64,000 bases of DNA from Oceanibacterium hippocampi (GTDB lineage: Bacteria > Pseudomonadota > Alphaproteobacteria > Sneathiellales > Sneathiellaceae), in NCBI RefSeq assembly GCF_900172325.1, contig NZ_FWFR01000005.1, positions 1 through 64,000 of the forward strand, in the 5' to 3' direction. The notes beneath the pieces were generated by a model. The model had not been told where the DNA came from. It saw only the letters and a program-made list of their open reading frames with translations, and ran no database searches. The translations under genes were made by a program, and so were the position numbers. This document shows, in pieces, positions 54,112 to 63,697 of the stretch (position 1 is its first letter; the number at the start of each line of letters is the position of its first letter).

Positions 54112-54924
54112 CTAGACGGTCGCTTTTTCGGGCCGGGTGCGGGTCGTCATGTCGCTCAGCCGCGCCTGCAGCTTTTCCGCCTCGGCCTTGAGGAGCGAGA
54201 CCATCCAGCGGACCCGGTCGGGCTCCATGCGCTCGCGGATGGCGGCGATGCTGATCGAGGCGACGACCCGGTCGCGCGGATCGAAGACCGGGATCCCGAC
54301 CGCGCACATCGCGGTCACGATCCGGCCGTCGTTGAAGCTGTAGCCCCGGTTTCGCGTCTCGTCGACGAGGGCGCGGAGCTCGTCCGGGCCGAAGCGCTTG
54401 TAGTCCGCAAGGCGCGGCGCCACGCCGGCAATGGCTTCGGCGATCTCGTCCTGCGGCAGGAAGGAGAGCAGGGCGAGGCTGCCGGCGCCGACGCCAAGCG
54501 GCCGTCGGTCGCCGGTATCGAGGGTCAAGGTCTTGATCGGATAATCGCCGATCTGGCGGTCGAGGCAGAGCGCGTCGAGGCCTTCGCGAACCGAGATGAA
54601 GACGGTATCGCCGGTCTCGCGGGCGAGATGCAGAAGCGACGGACGGGCCACGTCGACGATGTCGTAGCGGGTCGCCAGGTAGCCGAGCCGGACGATCTCG
54701 TAGCCGATGTGATAGCGCCGTGTATCCGGCGACTGGTAGGCGAAGCCGGCCTCGGCGAGCGCGGTCAGCAGCCGATGGGTGGTGGTCTTGCCGAACCCGG
54801 TCGCGCGCGCCACGTCCGACAACCGCCAGCCGTCCATCGCCTCGCCGGCCAGCAGCTTGATGATCGCCGCCGCGCGCGTGACCGATTTCACCGTGCTGTC
54901 GCCTTCCACCGATCGACCCTTCAT
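54112..54924 (-). CDS. IclR-family transcriptional regulator
   Basis: A 270-residue regulator with an N-terminal winged helix (about 12-75: AAAIIKLLAGEAMDGWRLSD, then TGFGKTTTHRLLTALAEAG) and a GAF-like effector domain (about 90-255). It is the last gene of the E1/TRAP/ThDP operon, ten bases after the duplicated-domain gene, and probably regulates that operon. A TTCCG-N5-CGGAA site upstream of the operon (62690-62704) fits an IclR-type operator. Confidence 0.9.
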   Translation of the reverse strand: MKGRSVEGDSTVKSVTRAAAIIKLLAGEAMDGWRLSDVARATGFGKTTTHRLLTALAEAGFAYQSPDTRRYHIGYEIVRLGYLATRYDIVDVARPSLLHLARETGDTVFISVREGLDALCLDRQIGDYPIKTLTLDTGDRRPLGVGAGSLALLSFLPQDEIAEAIAGVAPRLADYKRFGPDELRALVDETRNRGYSFNDGRIVTAMCAVGIPVFDPRDRVVASISIAAIRERMEPDRVRWMVSLLKAEAEKLQARLSDMTTRTRPEKATV

Positions 54925-54934
54925 TCGCTGCCGG

Positions 54935-55792
54935 TCACGGCCGGTCCGGCGTGTCGGCCCAGGCCAGCAATATGTCGCGCGCCGGCGTCAGGGGCCGCGC
55001 GCCGAGCCGTTCCGCGATCCTGTTGACCACCGAGATCTCGCCATCCTCGAAACTGGAGCGCGCCTCGCCGATGCGGGCGCTCGCCGCCGATACGGTGAAG
55101 GCGGCGATGCCGCGCCGGTCGAGCACCTCGAGCCGCGCGATCCCGGCCTGATCGACGCCGACGCCGGCATCGTTGAAGACCGCGGCATAGGCGTCGACCT
55201 TCAGCGCCTTTTCCGGCCGGCCGCCGACCAGGCCGCCGTGCGATCCGGTTACGACGATATGGCCGGCGTCTCCCGGTTCGACCAGGGCCGCCGAATCGAC
55301 CAGCCAGATGCGCCGGCCGCCGCCATCGCGGGCCAGCGAGCGGGCTTCGCCGAGCGCCGGCGGCATGACCGAGCGCAATGGCGCCGCGCGGAGCAGTTCC
55401 GCCGCCGCCATGGTCGGCATGTTGATCTCGACGCCGTGGCGCTGGGCGACCGCGTTGGCGGCGCTGATCCGTCCGCGCGCGACCATGTCGGCGGTATCGC
55501 CGATCCGGCAGCTCGTCGAGGCAACCGCGGCGGCAGCGATCCCGAGCCCGTCCAGATAGGGCAGGGCGCCGATTCCGGCCTCGTCCCGGCCGATCCCGGC
55601 GTCGCACAGTATGACCGCGCGAACGCCTGAACGGGCCGCGAGGTAGCCGGGATAGCGACCGCTATGCGAACCGCAGATGACGACGGCTCCGGGGGCGTCG
55701 TCCGGCAGCACGGTGATCGTGTCGGCAAAAACGATGTCTCCGGATCCGGCCAGGGCCGGCTCGTGCTCCGCGGTTCGGCCGGCGTCAGGCAA
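54935..55792 (-). CDS. Internally duplicated protein of unknown function
   Basis: A 285-residue soluble protein made of two similar halves, about 35-121 and 177-265. Each half has, in order, VxGSHxG (41-45 and 183-187), DAGxGxDxAGI (64-73 and 208-217), GIAA, RIG and a final G.IS..N..A...G. I recognise no named family. The paired GSHxG and DAGxGxD motifs look like an active or ligand site repeated in pseudo-twofold symmetry. Its start overlaps the ThDP enzyme stop by 8 bases, and the IclR gene follows, so it is part of the TRAP-linked pathway. Confidence 0.75.
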   Translation of the reverse strand: MPDAGRTAEHEPALAGSGDIVFADTITVLPDDAPGAVVICGSHSGRYPGYLAARSGVRAVILCDAGIGRDEAGIGALPYLDGLGIAAAAVASTSCRIGDTADMVARGRISAANAVAQRHGVEINMPTMAAAELLRAAPLRSVMPPALGEARSLARDGGGRRIWLVDSAALVEPGDAGHIVVTGSHGGLVGGRPEKALKVDAYAAVFNDAGVGVDQAGIARLEVLDRRGIAAFTVSAASARIGEARSSFEDGEISVVNRIAERLGARPLTPARDILLAWADTPDRP

Positions 55793-57515
55793 CGCGGTCT
55801 CCCTTCCGGACCTGCACGGTCCTGTTGTCGACGCCGGGCAGCATGTGCGCCGGATCGCGGGTGACGACCACGTCGATGACCGTCGGGCCCTCGCGGCCGC
55901 TCATGCCCTGCTTCAGCGCCGCGGCGATGTCGGCCGGGTCCTCGACCCGGATCCCGGTGCAGCCGAGCGCCTCGGCGACCCTGGCGTAGTTGATTTCCTG
56001 CAGGTCGCTCGACTGGTAGTTGCCCTCGCCATACATCAGGTGCTGCAGCGCCTTGACGTAACCGGAGGCGGCGTTGTTGACGATGATCAGGGTGAGCGGC
56101 AGCTTCAGCCGCCGCGCCGTCTCCAGTTCGCCCATGGTCATGTTGAAGCCGCCGTCGCCGGTCAGCGAGACCACCGGCCGCCCCGGCGCGGCGAGCGCGG
56201 CCCCCATCGCGCCCGGCAGGCCGTAGCCGATCGAGGCGAAACCCCGGTCCGGAACGAAGCCCCGGCCGGCCCGCTTGGTGTCGTATAGCAGGCCGCTCCA
56301 GTGCGCCGCGAAGCCGCCGTCGGCGACGAGGATGCCGTCGGCCGGCATGGCCCGGCTGATCTCGGCGAGCAGGCGCGCCATGTTGACCGGCCGCTCGTCC
56401 GAGGTGAGGCGTCCCTCGACCGATTTCCGCCAGGCCGCCATGCGGCCGGCGACTTCGTCGGCATAGCCCTGCTGGCGCGCGCGGATGGCGCCGCTCTCGG
56501 CCTCGAGCGCGACCTGCAGGTCCTGCAGGCCCTCGCGGGCGTCACCCCAGAGGCGGAGGTTCGGTGTGAAGGTTCGGTCGAACTCTTCCGCCACATTGTC
56601 GAGATGGATCACCGTCTTGTCGGCGGCCGGCACCGTGTAGCGCTTGGTCGCGATCTCGCCGAGCTTGCAGCCGACCACGAGGATGCAGTCGGATTCATCG
56701 ATCAGCTTGTTGGCGATCCGGTCGTAGCGTCCGAACAGGCCGGCGTTCAGCGGATCGGTGCAGGCGATCGCGCCCTTGCCGGTCATGGTATGGGCGACCG
56801 GCAGGTTGATCGCGTGGGCGAATGCCTCCGCCGCCGCGGTCGCGTCGCTGATATGGATACCGCCGCCGCACAGCATGATCGGGCGCCGTGCGCCGCCGAG
56901 CAGCCGGGCGGCCCGCGCCAGGTCGTCGCGCGCCGGGCGGCAGCGCAACGCCGGGGTATCCGCGAGACCCGGTTCGACCGCGAAGTCGCTTTCCTCGAAC
57001 GGATGGGTGCCGTGGCAGATATCCTCGGGCACCGCGACCACGACCGGGCCGGGACGGCCGGAGGTGGCGACCCGGAAGGCGCGCCGCACCAGTTCCGGAA
57101 TCCGCTCGATCATCTCGATGCGGATCAGTTCCTTGCAGGCCGGCGCGAGGATTTCCGTCTGCCGGGTCTCCTGGGTCATGTTCTTCCAGGAATGCGCGCG
57201 ATGGGTATCACCGACGAAGACGACCAGCGGCGAGCCGGCATTGAGCGCCTCGACCAGCCCGGTCACCAGGTTGGTCGCGCCCGGGCCAAGCGTCGCGTCG
57301 CAGACCGCGACCCGGCCGGAAACCTTGGCATAGGCGTCGGCGATGAAGACCGCGCAGCGTTCGTCGTTGATCAGGTTGTGATCGAGGCCGAGCCGCCGGG
57401 CGGCGTCGTAGAAGGGCAGCAGCTGGAACCCGCCCATGCCGAACATCGGGCCGACCTCGCAGCCCTTGAGGATCCGGGCGATCGCCTCGCCGCCCGTCAT
57501 TTCATTCAAACTCAC
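55785..57515 (-). CDS. ThDP-dependent enzyme (acetolactate-synthase-like)
   Basis: A 576-residue three-domain enzyme. The N-terminal Pyr domain has the ThDP-activating Glu52 in INDERCAVFIADAYA, the central domain has GGGIHISDATAAAEAF, and the C-terminal PP domain has SLTGDGGFNMTMGELETA..VNN, which binds ThDP and Mg2+. It could decarboxylate a 2-oxo acid or form a C-C bond. The TRAP and E1 neighbours suggest a 2-oxo acid or aldehyde intermediate. True acetolactate synthase is unlikely because no small subunit gene follows. Confidence 0.88.
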   Translation of the reverse strand: MSLNEMTGGEAIARILKGCEVGPMFGMGGFQLLPFYDAARRLGLDHNLINDERCAVFIADAYAKVSGRVAVCDATLGPGATNLVTGLVEALNAGSPLVVFVGDTHRAHSWKNMTQETRQTEILAPACKELIRIEMIERIPELVRRAFRVATSGRPGPVVVAVPEDICHGTHPFEESDFAVEPGLADTPALRCRPARDDLARAARLLGGARRPIMLCGGGIHISDATAAAEAFAHAINLPVAHTMTGKGAIACTDPLNAGLFGRYDRIANKLIDESDCILVVGCKLGEIATKRYTVPAADKTVIHLDNVAEEFDRTFTPNLRLWGDAREGLQDLQVALEAESGAIRARQQGYADEVAGRMAAWRKSVEGRLTSDERPVNMARLLAEISRAMPADGILVADGGFAAHWSGLLYDTKRAGRGFVPDRGFASIGYGLPGAMGAALAAPGRPVVSLTGDGGFNMTMGELETARRLKLPLTLIIVNNAASGYVKALQHLMYGEGNYQSSDLQEINYARVAEALGCTGIRVEDPADIAAALKQGMSGREGPTVIDVVVTRDPAHMLPGVDNRTVQVRKGDRVA

Positions 57516-57542: not shown

Positions 57543-58841
57543 TCAGATCCGGAAGCCGAGCACATGCGGCAGCCACAGGGCGATTTGCGGGAACATGATC
57601 ACGAGCAGCATCGCGATGCCCATGCACAGAACCAGCCAGAGAATCCACGGCACCGTCGCCTCCATCGTCACGCGCGCGATCTTCGCGGTGACGATCAGGT
57701 TGACGGCGACCGGCGGGGTGAACTGTCCGATCGCGATGTTCATCGCCATCACGACGCCGAACCAGGTGAGGTTCCAGCCGAAGGCGGTCGCGATCGGGAC
57801 CAGCAGCGGCAGGGTGATCAGGTAGATCGATACCCCGTCGAGGATCATCCCGCAGACCAGCAGCAGCACCATGATGAGCCCCAGCACGACGGTGCCGTTG
57901 CCGCTGAAGGCGAGAATCTCGCGAGCCGCGTGGTCGAAGGCGCCGAGCGTCGATCCGGCCCAGGCGAACAGCCCGGCGAGCGAGATGATCACCAGGATGA
58001 CGGCCGAGGTCTCGGCGCTGTCGGCCAGGACCCGCCAGGCGTCGGACCAGCGCATGCTGCGATAGATGAAGACACCGACGAAGAAGCCGTAGGCGACCGC
58101 GACGGCGGCCGCCTCGGTCGGCGTGAACAGGCCGGAGCGCAGGCCGCCCAGGATGATGACCGGCGCCATCAGGCCGGGCACCGCGCCGCGCAGGCTGGGC
58201 CAGAAGGGCGGCCGCTCGGAGCCTTCGGCGGCGCCGAAATCATGGCGGCGGCTGAGGAAGATCGTCGGCAGGATGACCGCGAGCCCGGCCAGCAGGCCGG
58301 GAAACAGGCCGGCGGCGAACAGCGCCCTGAGGTCGACGCCCGGAACCAGGATCGAGTAGACGATGAGCGCGATCGAGGGCGGGATCAGGATCGCGGTCGA
58401 GGCCGAGGCGGCGATCACGCTGGCGGAGAATTCGCGGGGATAACCGGCCTTCAGCATGGTCGGAATCATGATCGTGGCGACCGCGGCGGCGTCCGCCGGG
58501 CCGGAGCCGGACATCCCGCCCATGATCAGGCAGACCATGGTCGCGACGACGGCGAGCCCGCCGCGCCGGGGGCCGACGATCGACTGGGCGAAGGTGACCA
58601 GCCGGGCGGCCACGCCGGAACGCTCGAACACCATGCCGGTCAGCACGAAGAGCGGGATGGCGATCAGCGGATACTTGGCGACCGAGGCATAGGTGTTGCT
58701 GCCGACCATGGCGACGGTGTTCAGGTCGAGGCCGACGGCCACCGCCGCGGCGCCGGCAAGTCCGAGCGCCACGGCAATCGGCGTGCCGAGGGCGAGCAGG
58801 ACGATGAAGACGCCCAGCAGCAGGAAATTGGCGGTAATCAC
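57543..58841 (-). CDS. TRAP transporter large permease (DctM family)
   Basis: A 432-residue membrane protein with about 12 hydrophobic segments, starting at a GTG that overlaps the DctQ stop (GTGA). It has DctM motifs IPLFVLTGMVFERSG, MGGMSGSGPADAAAVATIM and ASASTAILIPPSIALIVY. It forms a second TRAP importer with the two upstream gene products. The longer frame upstream overlaps dctQ and is not coding. Confidence 0.9.
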   Translation of the reverse strand: MITANFLLLGVFIVLLALGTPIAVALGLAGAAAVAVGLDLNTVAMVGSNTYASVAKYPLIAIPLFVLTGMVFERSGVAARLVTFAQSIVGPRRGGLAVVATMVCLIMGGMSGSGPADAAAVATIMIPTMLKAGYPREFSASVIAASASTAILIPPSIALIVYSILVPGVDLRALFAAGLFPGLLAGLAVILPTIFLSRRHDFGAAEGSERPPFWPSLRGAVPGLMAPVIILGGLRSGLFTPTEAAAVAVAYGFFVGVFIYRSMRWSDAWRVLADSAETSAVILVIISLAGLFAWAGSTLGAFDHAAREILAFSGNGTVVLGLIMVLLLVCGMILDGVSIYLITLPLLVPIATAFGWNLTWFGVVMAMNIAIGQFTPPVAVNLIVTAKIARVTMEATVPWILWLVLCMGIAMLLVIMFPQIALWLPHVLGFRI

Positions 58842-59368
58842 GCCCGCCCCCGGATTGTGGCGATCAGCCGGCCGAGGATCCTGAGCAGGATGACGAAGCC
58901 GAGGATGGGCAGCCAGATCGTGTAGATCCAGGTCGGATAGCCGAGGCCGGGCGAGGTCTGCTCGAAGCGATACTCGTCCCACGTCAGTTCGCCGCCATAC
59001 CAGACGATCAGCGCGAACATGAAGAAGGAGGCCAGCGCCGCGAGGACCTCGCAGGTCAGCCGCGCGCGCGGCGGCAGCCGGTCCAGCAGGAAGACGATGC
59101 GGATATTCTCGTTGGTGGCGAATGCCAGCGAGGCGCCGACGAAGGTCATGATGACCATCAGGAAGACCGAGAATTCTTCCGTGAAGGCGAACGACACGTC
59201 GGTCGCGTAGCGGACCACCACGTTGGCGAAGCTGATCAGGCAGATCAGGCCCATGGCGAGCGCGCCCAGCGATCGCTCGATCGAGATCGGGACGCGGGCA
59301 TGGGGCGCTTCGCCGCGAATCGATTCCGCGGCAGGCGGTTCAGTGCGGGAATCTGACACGTTGTTCAC
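58838..59368 (-). CDS. TRAP transporter small permease (DctQ family)
   Basis: About 176 residues from GTG 59368, or three fewer from GTG 59359; a longer frame would run into the binding-protein gene. Four transmembrane segments are visible (about 30-50, 60-82, 96-118 and 140-165) with the DctQ-like VVVRYATDVSFAFTEEFSVFL. Both possible starts are GTG and lack a strong ribosome site. A hairpin lies 13 bases upstream, so initiation may be weak. Confidence 0.82.
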   Translation of the reverse strand: MNNVSDSRTEPPAAESIRGEAPHARVPISIERSLGALAMGLICLISFANVVVRYATDVSFAFTEEFSVFLMVIMTFVGASLAFATNENIRIVFLLDRLPPRARLTCEVLAALASFFMFALIVWYGGELTWDEYRFEQTSPGLGYPTWIYTIWLPILGFVILLRILGRLIATIRGRA

Positions 59369-59380
59369 CGTGTTCTGGAA

Positions 59381-59405
59381 GGGGTGGGCGCCCGGCGCCC
59401 ACCCC
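59381..59405 (-). terminator. Hairpin between TRAP binding-protein and small-permease genes
   Basis: Perfect 12-bp arms (GGGGTGGGCGCC and its complement) meet around a single base, so a stem of about 10 bp with a short loop will form. It sits in the 52-base gap between the dctP-like stop and the dctQ-like start. There is no T-run. It probably stabilises the binding-protein mRNA or limits read-through. Confidence 0.6.
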
Positions 59406-59420
59406 CCGTCAGGATGCCGT

Positions 59421-60443
59421 TCAGCGCTTGGCGATCGATTCTTCCGCCATGGTGACGAGATCGGCGCCGATCTTTTCCTTCCACTCGGCATAGACGCCAC
59501 GGGTGGCGTCGACGAAGGCCTGCCGTTCCGCGTCGCTCAGCCGGACGACCTTGACGCCGAGCGCCTCGAGCGAGGTCACCGCGGAATCGTCGCCGCCGGT
59601 CAGGCCCTTGCGGGCGATCTCGACGCCTTCCGCGCCGGCATCGACCGCCGCCTGGCGGACGATGGCTTGGTCTTCCGGCGTGAAGTTGTTCCAGACGTCC
59701 TGGTTGACCGCGAAGATCAGCGGATCGGCCACGTAGCCCCAGAGCGTGAGGTTCGATTGGCCGACTTCATGGATCTTGGCGATGGCGAAGACGCTGAGCG
59801 GGTTCTCCTGGCCGTCGACGGCCCCGGTGGTCAGCGCCGGCTTGGCGTCGGCCCAGCTCATCTGGGTCGGGTTGGCGCCAAGCGCGGTGAAGGTGTCGTT
59901 GAACAGCGGCGAGCCGACCACGCGCATCTTGAGGCCCTTCAGGTCGGCCGGCGTGCGGATCGGATGCTTCGAGTTCGAGACCTCACGGAAGCCGTTCTCG
60001 GCCCAGGCAAGCGGCTCGACGCCCTTCTCGCGCAGGATGGCGAACAGTTTCTCGCCGACCGGACCCTGCGTCAGGGCGTCGATCGCCGCGTAGTCCGGCA
60101 TCAGGAAGGGCAGGGAGAAGAGGTTCAGTTCCTTGACCTGGGGCGACCAGTTGATGGTCGAGCCGACCGACATGTCGATGATGCCGCGGCGCATCGCCGT
60201 GAATTCCTTGGTCTGGTCGCCGGAGACCAGCTGGGTGCCCGGATAGACCTTCATCTTGATCCGCCCATCGGTCCGCTCGCCGACCAGCGCGGCCCATTTC
60301 TCGGCCGCGATGCCCCACGGGAACGGCGCCGGGACGACGGTGGAAATCTTGTACTCTTCCTTGTAGTCGGCGGCGCCGGCCGGCATGCCGGTCATCGCCG
60401 CCAGGCCTGCAAGCAGGGCCAGACTCAATAAACGCTTGGACAT
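59421..60443 (-). CDS. TRAP transporter substrate-binding protein (DctP family)
   Basis: A 340-residue periplasmic protein with a signal peptide (about 1-24, ending PAGAA). It has ISTVVPAPFPWGIAAEKWAA, YPGTQLVSGDQTKEFTAMRRG and GLKMRVVGSPLFNDTFTALGANPT; the last holds the Arg that usually binds the ligand carboxylate in DctP proteins. AAGGGAGAAGG precedes ATG 60443. It follows the E1 beta gene by 35 bases. The cargo is likely a carboxylate used by the flanking ThDP enzymes. Confidence 0.9.
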   Translation of the reverse strand: MSKRLLSLALLAGLAAMTGMPAGAADYKEEYKISTVVPAPFPWGIAAEKWAALVGERTDGRIKMKVYPGTQLVSGDQTKEFTAMRRGIIDMSVGSTINWSPQVKELNLFSLPFLMPDYAAIDALTQGPVGEKLFAILREKGVEPLAWAENGFREVSNSKHPIRTPADLKGLKMRVVGSPLFNDTFTALGANPTQMSWADAKPALTTGAVDGQENPLSVFAIAKIHEVGQSNLTLWGYVADPLIFAVNQDVWNNFTPEDQAIVRQAAVDAGAEGVEIARKGLTGGDDSAVTSLEALGVKVVRLSDAERQAFVDATRGVYAEWKEKIGADLVTMAEESIAKR

Positions 60444-60478
60444 GGTTCCTTCTCCCTTGTTGATTCTTTTCGACACAA

Positions 60479-61453
60479 TCACTGACCGGTCATATCGCGG
60501 GCCGCGGCGACAACCGCCTCGGCCGTCACCCGGACCTCGTTCTCGAGCGGCGGGGCATAGCTGATCGGCACCCGGGGCGCGCCGAGCCGGCGGACCGGGG
60601 CCTTCAGCGCGGCGTGGCAGGACTCGGCCACGGTCGCCGCGATCTCGGCGCCGAAACCGGCGACGGCGACCGCTTCATGGACGACCAGCAGACGGCCGGT
60701 CTTCTCGACGCTCGCCAGTACCGCGTCGCGATCCCACGGCCACAGCGTCCGCAGGTCGAGCAGGTCGGTCTCGATCCCGAGGCCGGCCAGTTCGCCCGCC
60801 GCCTGTTCGGCGGTATGCACCGCGGCCGACCAGGAGACGATCGTCAGGTCGCCGCCTTCGCGCACCAGGCGCGCCTTGCCGAACGGCGCGACGTCGTCGC
60901 CCTCGGGCACCTCGCCCTCGAGCGGCCAGAGCCCCTTGTGCTCCATGAAGACCACCGGATCGTCGCAGCGGATCGCCGCCTTGAGCAGCGCCCGGTTGTC
61001 CGCCGGCGTCGACGGCACGGCGACCACGAGCCCCGGGATATGCGCGTACCAGGCTTCCAGCGACTGCGAATGCTGGGCGGCCGACGAGCGCCACATGCCG
61101 ATCGGTTCGCGGACGACGATCGGCACCCGGGTCTGCCCGCCGAACATGTAGCGGGCCTTGGCCGCCTGGTTGACCAGTTCGTCGACGGCGCAGAGCGCGA
61201 AGTCCGAGAAGCGCATCTCGACGATCGGACGGGTGCCCATCATCGCCGCACCGACGGCGGCGCCGACGATGCAGGATTCGGAAATCGGCGCGTCGGAGAT
61301 ACGATCGGGCCCGAACTGCTCGGCCAGTCCCTTGTACTGGCCGAAGACGCCGCCCCGGCCGAGATCCTCGCCGACCGCCCAGACCAGCGGATCGCGCTCC
61401 ATCTCCTCGGCGACGGCGACGCGGGAGGCTTCGAGATAACTCAGGCGTCGCAT
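60479..61453 (-). CDS. 2-Oxoacid dehydrogenase E1 component, beta subunit
   Basis: A 324-residue transketolase-like beta subunit of pyruvate/acetoin/branched-chain E1 type: VGEDLGRGGVFGQYKGLAEQFG, DAPISESCIVGAAVGAAMMG, and the C-terminal domain LTIVSWSAAVHTAEQAA..LLVVHEAVAVAGFGAEIAA. It pairs with the alpha subunit encoded directly upstream (stop and start share one base). No E2 or E3 gene lies in the operon, so these must be shared from elsewhere, or the complex works differently. Confidence 0.9.
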   Translation of the reverse strand: MRRLSYLEASRVAVAEEMERDPLVWAVGEDLGRGGVFGQYKGLAEQFGPDRISDAPISESCIVGAAVGAAMMGTRPIVEMRFSDFALCAVDELVNQAAKARYMFGGQTRVPIVVREPIGMWRSSAAQHSQSLEAWYAHIPGLVVAVPSTPADNRALLKAAIRCDDPVVFMEHKGLWPLEGEVPEGDDVAPFGKARLVREGGDLTIVSWSAAVHTAEQAAGELAGLGIETDLLDLRTLWPWDRDAVLASVEKTGRLLVVHEAVAVAGFGAEIAATVAESCHAALKAPVRRLGAPRVPISYAPPLENEVRVTAEAVVAAARDMTGQ

Positions 61454-62460
61454 CAGTAGGCCCTCTCACGCGGGTCGCCGATATCCTGGACATCGGTGAA
61501 GGCAAGTTCCCGTGCCGGCCAGTCGGTATTCCTCGCGGTTTCGCTGGCCTGCTTCATTTCCCGTTCCGCCGCCGCCGCGACGGCTGCGAGATCGGCGTCC
61601 GCCACCCCTGCGCCGGCCAGCACCTTGCGGGTATTCGCGATCGGGTCGTTCCGCCAGCGTTCCTCGACCTCCGCCTGCGGGCGATAGGGCGCGGTGTCGG
61701 CGCTGGTGTGCCCGGTCAGCCGGTAGGTGCGAGCGAGCAGGAAACGCGGCGTGCCGCGGCGCGCCACCTCGATCAGTTCGCGCGCCGCCTCGTCGACCGC
61801 AAGCAGGTCGTTGCCATCGACGGTCTCGGCCTTTATGCCGATGGCCTCGGCACGCGCCGCCGGGCCGTCGCCGCTGGTCATCGACTGGGTCCGCGTCGTC
61901 GAGGCGAAGCCGTTGTCCTCGCAGACGAACAGGATCGGCAGCTTGAAGACACCGGCCCAGTTGAGGCCCTCGAGAAACGGGCCGCGATTGATCGCGCCAT
62001 CGCCGAAGAAACAGACGACGACCCGGTCCTCGCGCTTGAGCTTGATCGCGTGCGCGGCGCCGGCGGCGATGTTGATGTTCGCCGCGACGACCCCGTTGGC
62101 CCCGAGCATGCCGACTTCGAAATCGGCGATATGCATCGAGCCGCCCTTGCCCTGGCTGGTGCCGCCGGCGCGTCCGAACAGCTCGCGCATCATGGCCAGC
62201 GCGTCGGCACCCTTGGCCATGGTGTGGCCATGGCCACGGTGGGTCGACAGGATGATGTCGTCGCGGCGCAGGTTGCTGCACACGCCGACCGCGACGGCCT
62301 CCTGGCCGATCGAGGGGTGAATCGCGCCAAGCACGAGCTTTTCCTCGGCCGCCGCGATCGCGGCCTTCTCGAACTCGCGGATCCGGCACATCTCGCGGAA
62401 CTGGGCGAGGTGGCGATCGACATTCAGATTGGAGGCGATCGATGAGCTACGTCCTGGCAC
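61453..62460 (-). CDS. 2-Oxoacid dehydrogenase E1 component, alpha subunit
   Basis: A 335-residue E1 alpha subunit with HRGHGHTMAKGADALAMM, GGSMHIADFEVGMLGANGVVAA and the ThDP-Mg motif FFGDGAINRGPFLEGLNWA..EDNGFASTT. Together with E1 beta it would decarboxylate a 2-oxo acid, or cleave acetoin, onto a lipoyl group. It is the first gene of the E1/TRAP/ThDP operon. An IclR-type operator candidate lies 230 bases upstream. Confidence 0.9.
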   Translation of the reverse strand: MPGRSSSIASNLNVDRHLAQFREMCRIREFEKAAIAAAEEKLVLGAIHPSIGQEAVAVGVCSNLRRDDIILSTHRGHGHTMAKGADALAMMRELFGRAGGTSQGKGGSMHIADFEVGMLGANGVVAANINIAAGAAHAIKLKREDRVVVCFFGDGAINRGPFLEGLNWAGVFKLPILFVCEDNGFASTTRTQSMTSGDGPAARAEAIGIKAETVDGNDLLAVDEAARELIEVARRGTPRFLLARTYRLTGHTSADTAPYRPQAEVEERWRNDPIANTRKVLAGAGVADADLAAVAAAAEREMKQASETARNTDWPARELAFTDVQDIGDPRERAY

Positions 62461-63016: not shown

Positions 63017-63094
63017 GATATGGCCCTGCACAACCTCTTGATTCGGACCAGATCCGATGCCAAGGCCATAGAAGAAGTGAAAAGGGGTAATGCC

Positions 63095-63697
63095 ATGAAG
63101 AAGGGCATGTTCTTAGCCGGCGCGATCGCGGCCTGCGTCATGTTCGCGGGGGCTGCGCAGGCGACGGTCATCAATCTCGCCACGGGCGGCGATGCGACCA
63201 CGACGTCGTTCTCCAAGGCGGGTATTTCCGGCACGATTTCCGCGCGCAGCGGCGGCAATTCCTATCCGGGCAACAATGCGCTCAACAGCAACGTGATCAA
63301 TCAGGACGCGTTCGGTCTCGGCATCAAGCTGAATAGCAATGATGACCCGGACGTTGACGGGCGGAACACCATCGAGTGGCTGGTCTTCGACTTTGCCTCC
63401 GCCGTCACCCTGAACAGCATCTCGTTCAGCGACGACAACCTTAGCGGCAACTGGGACGTCTGGATTTCCCTGGCCGGTGCGGTCACGAAGGTCGGCAACG
63501 GCTCGACCCAGAATCCCTTCACCTCGGGCCTCGGCGTCCTCGTCGACCGCTTCGTCGTGAAGGCCGACAGCAACAGCGATTCCTGGCGTGTCGGGAGCTT
63601 CGACGCGACCGCGGTGCCGGAACCGGCGACGCTCGGCCTGTTCGGCCTCGGCCTGCTGGGCCTGGGTCTCGCGTCCCGCCGTCGCAAGGTCGCCTGA
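63095..63697 (+). CDS. PEP-CTERM sorting-domain protein
   Basis: A 200-residue exported protein. The signal peptide (about 1-23, ending GAAQA) is followed by an Asn/Ser-rich domain, and the C-terminus is a classic PEP-CTERM tail: VPEPATLGLFG, a glycine/leucine helix, then RRRK. Exosortase (EpsH/XrtA-like) would cleave at PEP and pass the protein to the cell surface or an exopolysaccharide matrix. ATG 63095 starts the signal peptide and follows AAAAGGGG. No exosortase gene is in the window. Confidence 0.92.
   Translation: MKKGMFLAGAIAACVMFAGAAQATVINLATGGDATTTSFSKAGISGTISARSGGNSYPGNNALNSNVINQDAFGLGIKLNSNDDPDVDGRNTIEWLVFDFASAVTLNSISFSDDNLSGNWDVWISLAGAVTKVGNGSTQNPFTSGLGVLVDRFVVKADSNSDSWRVGSFDATAVPEPATLGLFGLGLLGLGLASRRRKVA

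Follow-up and report, generated by a model that had tools for sequence, protein, structure and literature searches.

A gene in an operon of Oceanibacterium hippocampi encodes a protein that is a true internal duplication of one domain, and that domain is a variant of a known, uncharacterized one. The protein belongs, with good support, to a module with a distinct subfamily of ThDP-dependent enzymes and a lone 2-oxo acid dehydrogenase E1-alpha/E1-beta pair. All coordinates below refer to the window, the whole stretch of 64,000 nucleotides that was analyzed.

Results

Operon and gene signals

The preliminary description of this DNA had placed the gene in a TRAP operon with an IclR gene, and both identities were confirmed with Pfam and NCBIfam (Table 1). 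It had also described the gene as translationally coupled to both the ThDP and the IclR genes. For the ThDP gene this holds: its final 8 nt are overlapped by the TTG start of the two-domain gene (ThDP stop at 55787–55785) and, since a Shine-Dalgarno-like sequence precedes that TTG by 6 nt and lies within the ThDP gene, coupling is well supported. The IclR gene, however, is part of the same operon but begins 10 nt past the stop of the two-domain gene, with no overlap. Plus-strand ORFs across the two-domain gene are shadow frames, as every homolog matches the minus strand. The operon also contains an E1-alpha/E1-beta pair (60479–62460) that was absent from the preliminary description, and no E2 or E3 gene was recognized in the neighborhood of this pair. 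Elsewhere in the window (63020–63697, plus strand) is a gene for a protein that ends with a PEP-CTERM-like sorting signal (VPEPATLGLFGLGLLGLGLASRRRKVA).

Table 1. Features of the two-domain gene and its operon in the window
Feature	Position	Strand	Basis and remarks
IclR-type regulator	54112..54924	minus	Pfam/NCBIfam
Two-domain DUF1805-like protein, CDS	54935..55792	minus	285 aa + stop; TTG start at 55792, TGA at 54937-54935; translation, homologs, AF2 model
Repeat 1 (residues 20-140)	55373..55735	minus	GSHSG, DAGIGRDEAGI, CRIGD, GRISAAN
GSHSG of repeat 1 (residues 41-45)	55658..55672	minus	Translation
DAGIGRDEAGI of repeat 1 (residues 64-74)	55571..55603	minus	Translation and profile alignment; in the hairpin that DUF1805 lacks
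Repeat 2 (residues 162-280)	54953..55309	minus	GSHGG, DAGVGVDQAGI, ARIGE, GEISVVN; folds alone
GSHGG of repeat 2 (residues 183-187)	55232..55246	minus	Translation
DAGVGVDQAGI of repeat 2 (residues 208-218)	55139..55171	minus	Translation
Shine-Dalgarno-like GGAAGGGAG	55799..55807	minus	6 nt upstream of the TTG start, within the ThDP gene
ThDP-dependent enzyme, acetolactate-synthase superfamily, distinct subfamily	55785..57515	minus	GPMFGMGGFQLLPFY, NDER, GCKLGEIATKRY, NNAASGYVKALQ
TRAP large permease DctM	57543..58982	minus	ORF as listed; true start probably near 58840
TRAP small permease DctQ	58838..59500	minus	Pfam/NCBIfam
TRAP substrate-binding protein DctP	59421..60482	minus	Pfam/NCBIfam
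2-oxo acid dehydrogenase E1 beta	60479..61453	minus	Pfam/NCBIfam
2-oxo acid dehydrogenase E1 alpha	61453..62460	minus	Pfam/NCBIfam

Two copies of a DUF1805-like domain

An internal duplication had been proposed from two motifs, GSHxG and DAGxGxDxAGI, that recur in each half. The halves are 40% identical over 111 amino acids (blastp, E = 2e-19) and the half-profiles align at E = 2e-40 over 125 columns (hhalign); as this similarity reaches far past the two motifs, chance is excluded. The order of the motifs is indeed identical, whereas their spacing, which had been described as the same, is near-equal, at 23 residues in half 1 and 25 in half 2, where there is a 2-residue insertion. An AlphaFold2 model of the whole protein, made with 72 homologs as input (pLDDT 94.4, pTM 0.90), has strands and helices in the same order in both halves, and half 2 modeled alone from 83 half-sequences reached pLDDT 95.4 and pTM 0.90. 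Structure prediction, which had been put forward as a check, agrees with the duplication in the order of these elements.

In every fold search of the PDB, 1qw2 (TA1206, DUF1805/COG3377) ranked first, and it was the sole standing match. Foldseek gave a probability of 0.97–0.98 (E 0.05–0.18), and VIA gave Z scores of 8.3 for the whole model (94/102 residues, 3.1 Å) and 7.5 for half 2 alone, compared with 5.9 and 5.0, respectively, for the next-best structures. As a Z near 8 is modest, we read these model comparisons as placing the window protein and TA1206 in the same superfamily but not the same family. Sequence profiles gave a similar picture. The PF08827 (DUF1805) score of the window protein, 13.7 bits (E = 0.075), does not reach the gathering threshold of 29.5 bits; a distant relative, L017, exceeds this cut-off at 31.7 bits, and 52 of 72 relatives match Pfam DUF1805 at E < 0.01. 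Local hhalign comparison to a profile of four DUF1805 sequences, including YunC of B. subtilis, gave 61–76% probability, versus 0.1% with reversed columns, and the alignment of the window-family profile to that of DUF1805 is significant over the C-terminal part only.

When the sequences are aligned by eye, the GSHGG loop falls on the GSKGY loop of DUF1805, and the NDAGxGxDxAGI hairpin is missing from DUF1805. The window protein and DUF1805/COG3377 proteins such as TA1206 and YunC have in common a GS[H/K]G loop and a C-terminal A...G(I/V)..GM helix region. However, DUF1805 proteins are single domains of ~100 amino acids rather than two repeats of ~120, lack the hairpin that both window repeats possess, and have Lys in the loop where the window family has His. 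Since the gathering score is missed and the domain differs, we rejected full assignment to DUF1805 (PF08827) and name the protein DUF1805-like. DUF1805/COG3377 is itself uncharacterized (PMC9425974). The preliminary description had called the protein unrecognized, and this stands insofar as profile searches assigned it to no characterized family, and neither Pfam and NCBIfam nor the fold searches listed acetolactate decarboxylase, a regulatory subunit of the ACT type or other known families; but both halves are distantly related to DUF1805/TA1206.

Misleading Pfam IMS matches, down to 7e-9, arise from a 30-residue helix motif (S..N..A...GV..GM...A) that the window family has in common with DUF1805 and with the Y-family DNA polymerases. 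Kinship to these polymerases (IMS, PF00817) was rejected because the Pfam and PDB matches span only ~30 residues of this one motif. Matches L107–L115, of 354–389 amino acids, are compatible with DNA polymerase IV in both length and helix motif.

Distribution, conserved residues, and phylogeny

A pattern search of genome contigs returned 488 matches, 404 of which encode relatives; the 80 that we kept come from Pseudomonadota, Poribacteria, Latescibacterota, Gemmatimonadales and Actinomycetota. More relatives reside on haloarchaeal and Rhodococcus plasmids and, wherever annotated, all are hypothetical. The two-domain family is present in 60 of 389 sampled alphaproteobacterial genomes. A search for single-domain relatives, also suggested earlier, found them, and seven were looked at.

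A half-by-half comparison shows a recurrent set of Asp, Ser-His, Asn-Asp, Asp, Arg, Ser and Asn. Of 136 two-domain relatives, 130 (the window protein among them) carry Ser-His in each half; the pair is also present in 7/7 single-domain relatives, in all of which the D/SH/ND/D/R/N set is nearly complete. Outgroup paralogs (L154, L018, L017 and L167) have lost Ser-His from one or both halves. A composite site made from the Ser of one half and the His of the other was considered, with SY/GH or SY/AH occurring in three paralogs, but is contradicted by L165, L016 and L167. The O. hippocampi genome itself encodes a diverged paralog (L154:7842–8681; contig C6, 894841–895680, minus strand; 33–34% identity) in which SY and GH replace the SH pairs and which adjoins NIPSNAP, cupin, IclR, ferredoxin-reductase-like and TRAP genes.

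In a quick tree of the halves, in which support is modest, most first halves of the main clade group together, as do most second halves, and single-domain forms lie near the base. The two halves of L165 pair with each other, which suggests more than one duplication, and L165 is possibly an independent one; this two-domain relative (L165:7774–8646) adjoins genes for a BKACE-like enzyme and TRAP. A quick, midpoint-rooted tree of 92 proteins has the link to ThDP genes spanning a clade of 83 sequences, although some loci within it have no ThDP gene nearby. The outgroup consists of the C6 paralog and plasmid copies from Rhodococcus and Aminobacter, and haloarchaeal copies branch between. Single-domain relatives from one alphaproteobacterial family (L161–L164) adjoin GNAT acetyltransferase and LysR genes and, mostly, also WrbA-like flavodoxin genes. 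At L037:8001–8804 and L046:5370–6245, the matched stretch contains one in-frame stop, possibly reflecting a pseudogene or an assembly error.

Linkage to a ThDP subfamily and an E1 pair

Among 88 loci, where neighboring genes were called by our own procedure, a ThDP gene lies within ~8 kb in 65; both ThDP and E1 genes are present in 47 and neither in 19. With ~10 ThDP genes of the acetolactate-synthase superfamily and two E1-alpha genes that are clear in the 4.83 Mb O. hippocampi genome, linkage by chance would be expected at a level of a few percent. Gene order varies. In Roseomonadaceae, the E1-alpha/beta genes are divergent from the two-domain gene, which is followed by the ThDP gene, and in the window's own family (L155–L157) the order is IclR-E1-ThDP-TRAP with the two-domain gene divergent. 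One locus (L173:2172–8044, genome G494) has two E1-alpha/beta pairs flanking the ThDP and two-domain genes.

Co-occurrence with the ThDP gene, which the preliminary description had proposed to search for, also holds genome-wide. We defined the ThDP subfamily by a score of at least 699 bits (paralogs in the O. hippocampi genome score at most 330 bits) and compared presence and absence across 389 genomes, all from Alphaproteobacteria. The subfamily is present in 45 genomes from 27 genera, and 45/45 also encode the two-domain family (hypergeometric log10 P = −45.6 by genome and −30 by genus, with shared ancestry uncorrected). In several of these genomes, the ThDP and two-domain genes occupy separate contigs or lie at a distance of hundreds of kb; among such separated genes, the two-domain gene adjoins E1-alpha/beta in L219, L220 and L222, and the ThDP gene does so in L229. 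That co-occurrence persists at a distance, with E1 neighbors, argues for a shared pathway over mere hitch-hiking. As 15 genomes contain the two-domain protein or single-domain form without the ThDP subfamily, the family cannot serve this enzyme alone.

The co-occurrence with TRAP genes, proposed for the same search, did not hold as a conserved unit: relatives are served by TRAP, TctC or ABC systems, and a TRAP-specific role was rejected on this ground. Since the transporters are interchangeable, the conserved unit is the ThDP enzyme, E1-alpha/beta and the two-domain protein, not the TRAP operon.

Partner enzymes

Like other members of the acetolactate synthase superfamily, the ThDP partner has TPP_enzyme N/M/C domains, a catalytic Glu and a GDG...NN motif; its closest solved chain is BbmA. 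However, the best NCBIfam model gives it 389 of 673 bits and its signatures are distinct. The four sequences listed in Table 1 are common to 62 loci and absent from six paralogs in the O. hippocampi genome, one of which is a sulfoacetaldehyde acetyltransferase (NCBIfam). Acetolactate synthases carry ARFDDRVTG where the partner has GCKLGEIATKRY, and this replacement suggests that the partner probably uses a second substrate other than theirs. The E1 pair matches E1 alpha/beta models and pyruvate dehydrogenase E1 structures. While the other E1 of this genome, on contig C6, is apparently followed by an E2-type lipoyl-domain reading frame, no such gene was recognized near the pair in the module.

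Discussion

What might the module act upon? The substrates of OiaK and OiaX are 3-oxo-isoapionate and its 4-phosphate; 3-oxo-isoapionate, a hydroxylated acid of the acetolactate type, has the acetolactate skeleton and belongs to the alpha-hydroxy-beta-keto acids. Haloarchaeal family members adjoin genes for TRAP, an SDR, an HpcH-type aldolase, an OiaK-like kinase, an OiaX-like RuBisCO-like protein and a PGDH_C dehydrogenase, and members in Acetobacteraceae and Variovorax adjoin an OiaK-like kinase and/or an OiaX-like RuBisCO-like gene; L021 occurs with an OiaX-like gene and L033 with an OiaK-like kinase, and a second, related gene accompanies each. As the OiaK/OiaX-like matches, at 443 and 429 bits, are well below the equivalog cut-off of 700, the substrate class is a guess. 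Nevertheless, an acetolactate-synthase-like ThDP enzyme and OiaK/OiaX-like neighbors indicate one class of intermediate, and we infer that the intermediate of the window module may be of the acetolactate type. The enzymes of the 3-oxo-isoapionate pathway, including the RuBisCO-like decarboxylase step, are cited in PMC6302742. This pathway resembles ours in that genes like those for its OiaK kinase and OiaX decarboxylase lie beside family members, but it has no known component from the two-domain family, and the window operon lacks OiaK and OiaX.

Our tentative reading is that the conserved module includes a putative two-site acid-base enzyme that processes an acetolactate-type intermediate. 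The two-domain protein would be a small enzyme in which the residues that recur in each repeat (Asp, Ser-His, Asn-Asp, Asp, Arg and Asn) putatively form two equivalent sites, located either within the individual repeats or where the repeats meet across the pseudo-two-fold. Two equivalent acid-base sites would be the simplest reading of the symmetric conservation, and the earlier suggestion of two active sites is consistent with the presence of Ser-His in both halves of nearly all two-domain relatives; since Ser-His is lost in the outgroup paralogs, a binding role fits as well. Single-domain relatives would form the same site pair as homodimers. The chemistry would be isomerization, tautomerization or epimerization rather than redox, and the substrate an acetolactate-type alpha-hydroxy-beta-keto or alpha-ketol intermediate, possibly derived from a branched sugar acid imported via the TRAP system. 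The protein might make the form that is cleaved by the ThDP enzyme or, alternatively, process the output of that enzyme. We rank this putative isomerase, tautomerase or epimerase role on an alpha-ketol first, though still as a doubtful choice, a subunit or regulator second and a Ser-His hydrolase third.

As acetolactate synthase has small regulatory subunits, could the two-domain protein assist or regulate the ThDP enzyme or the E1 pair as a subunit without catalytic activity of its own, with a ligand bound in each repeat? Translational coupling of the kind implied by the 8-nt overlap is common among subunits, the ThDP subfamily never occurs without the two-domain protein among the 389 genomes, and Ser-His is degenerate in some paralogs. 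We nonetheless consider a subunit unlikely, as Pfam (no ACT match at E ≤ 10) and fold searches revealed neither an ACT domain nor another known regulatory fold, the two genes are far apart in several genomes, and the family occurs in haloarchaeal, Rhizobium and Rhodococcus catabolic clusters with no enzyme of the ThDP subfamily nearby.

Conservation of Ser-His and Asp in both repeats, in catabolic operons that sometimes include CoA ligases and amidohydrolases, could also be explained by a Ser-His hydrolase of a lactone, ester or amide that opens a ring or releases an acid before the ThDP step. This is improbable, since Ser and His stand side by side in a loop rich in glycine, an arrangement that differs from the usual hydrolase triads, and no hydrolase fold was prominent in the fold searches. 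Least probable of all is a general metabolite-damage or carbonyl-handling protein with no fixed partner, recruited to many catabolic operons. The varied neighbors (SDR, cupin, NIPSNAP, CMD, VOC, BKACE and HpcH aldolase) and the several paralogs within one genome would be accommodated, but in the large clade to which the window protein belongs, the link to E1 genes and a single ThDP subfamily is tight. Given this inheritance together with one ThDP enzyme, the two-domain protein, which we favor as an acid-base enzyme, is probably a missing step of an undescribed degradation pathway.

In the literature searched, we found no published function for the two-domain family, the DUF1805 superfamily, 1qw2 or this operon combination. 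It is possible, with a likelihood that we place just short of even, that a new enzyme family with tandem DUF1805-like domains and two acid-base sites, a lone E1 pair and a ThDP subfamily that is likewise new together constitute an undescribed catabolism of acetolactate-type compounds or branched sugar acids in several phyla, with relatives in 3-oxo-isoapionate-like pathways of bacteria and haloarchaea, and that they provide the first functional handle on DUF1805/COG3377. Since the linkage defines a testable module, the finding is of more interest than the raw observation. The exclusive genome-wide link to the ThDP enzyme, which holds through rearrangement and separation of the genes, makes the pathway directly testable, with assays offered by the ThDP and E1 enzymes and substrate leads by the transporter and regulator.
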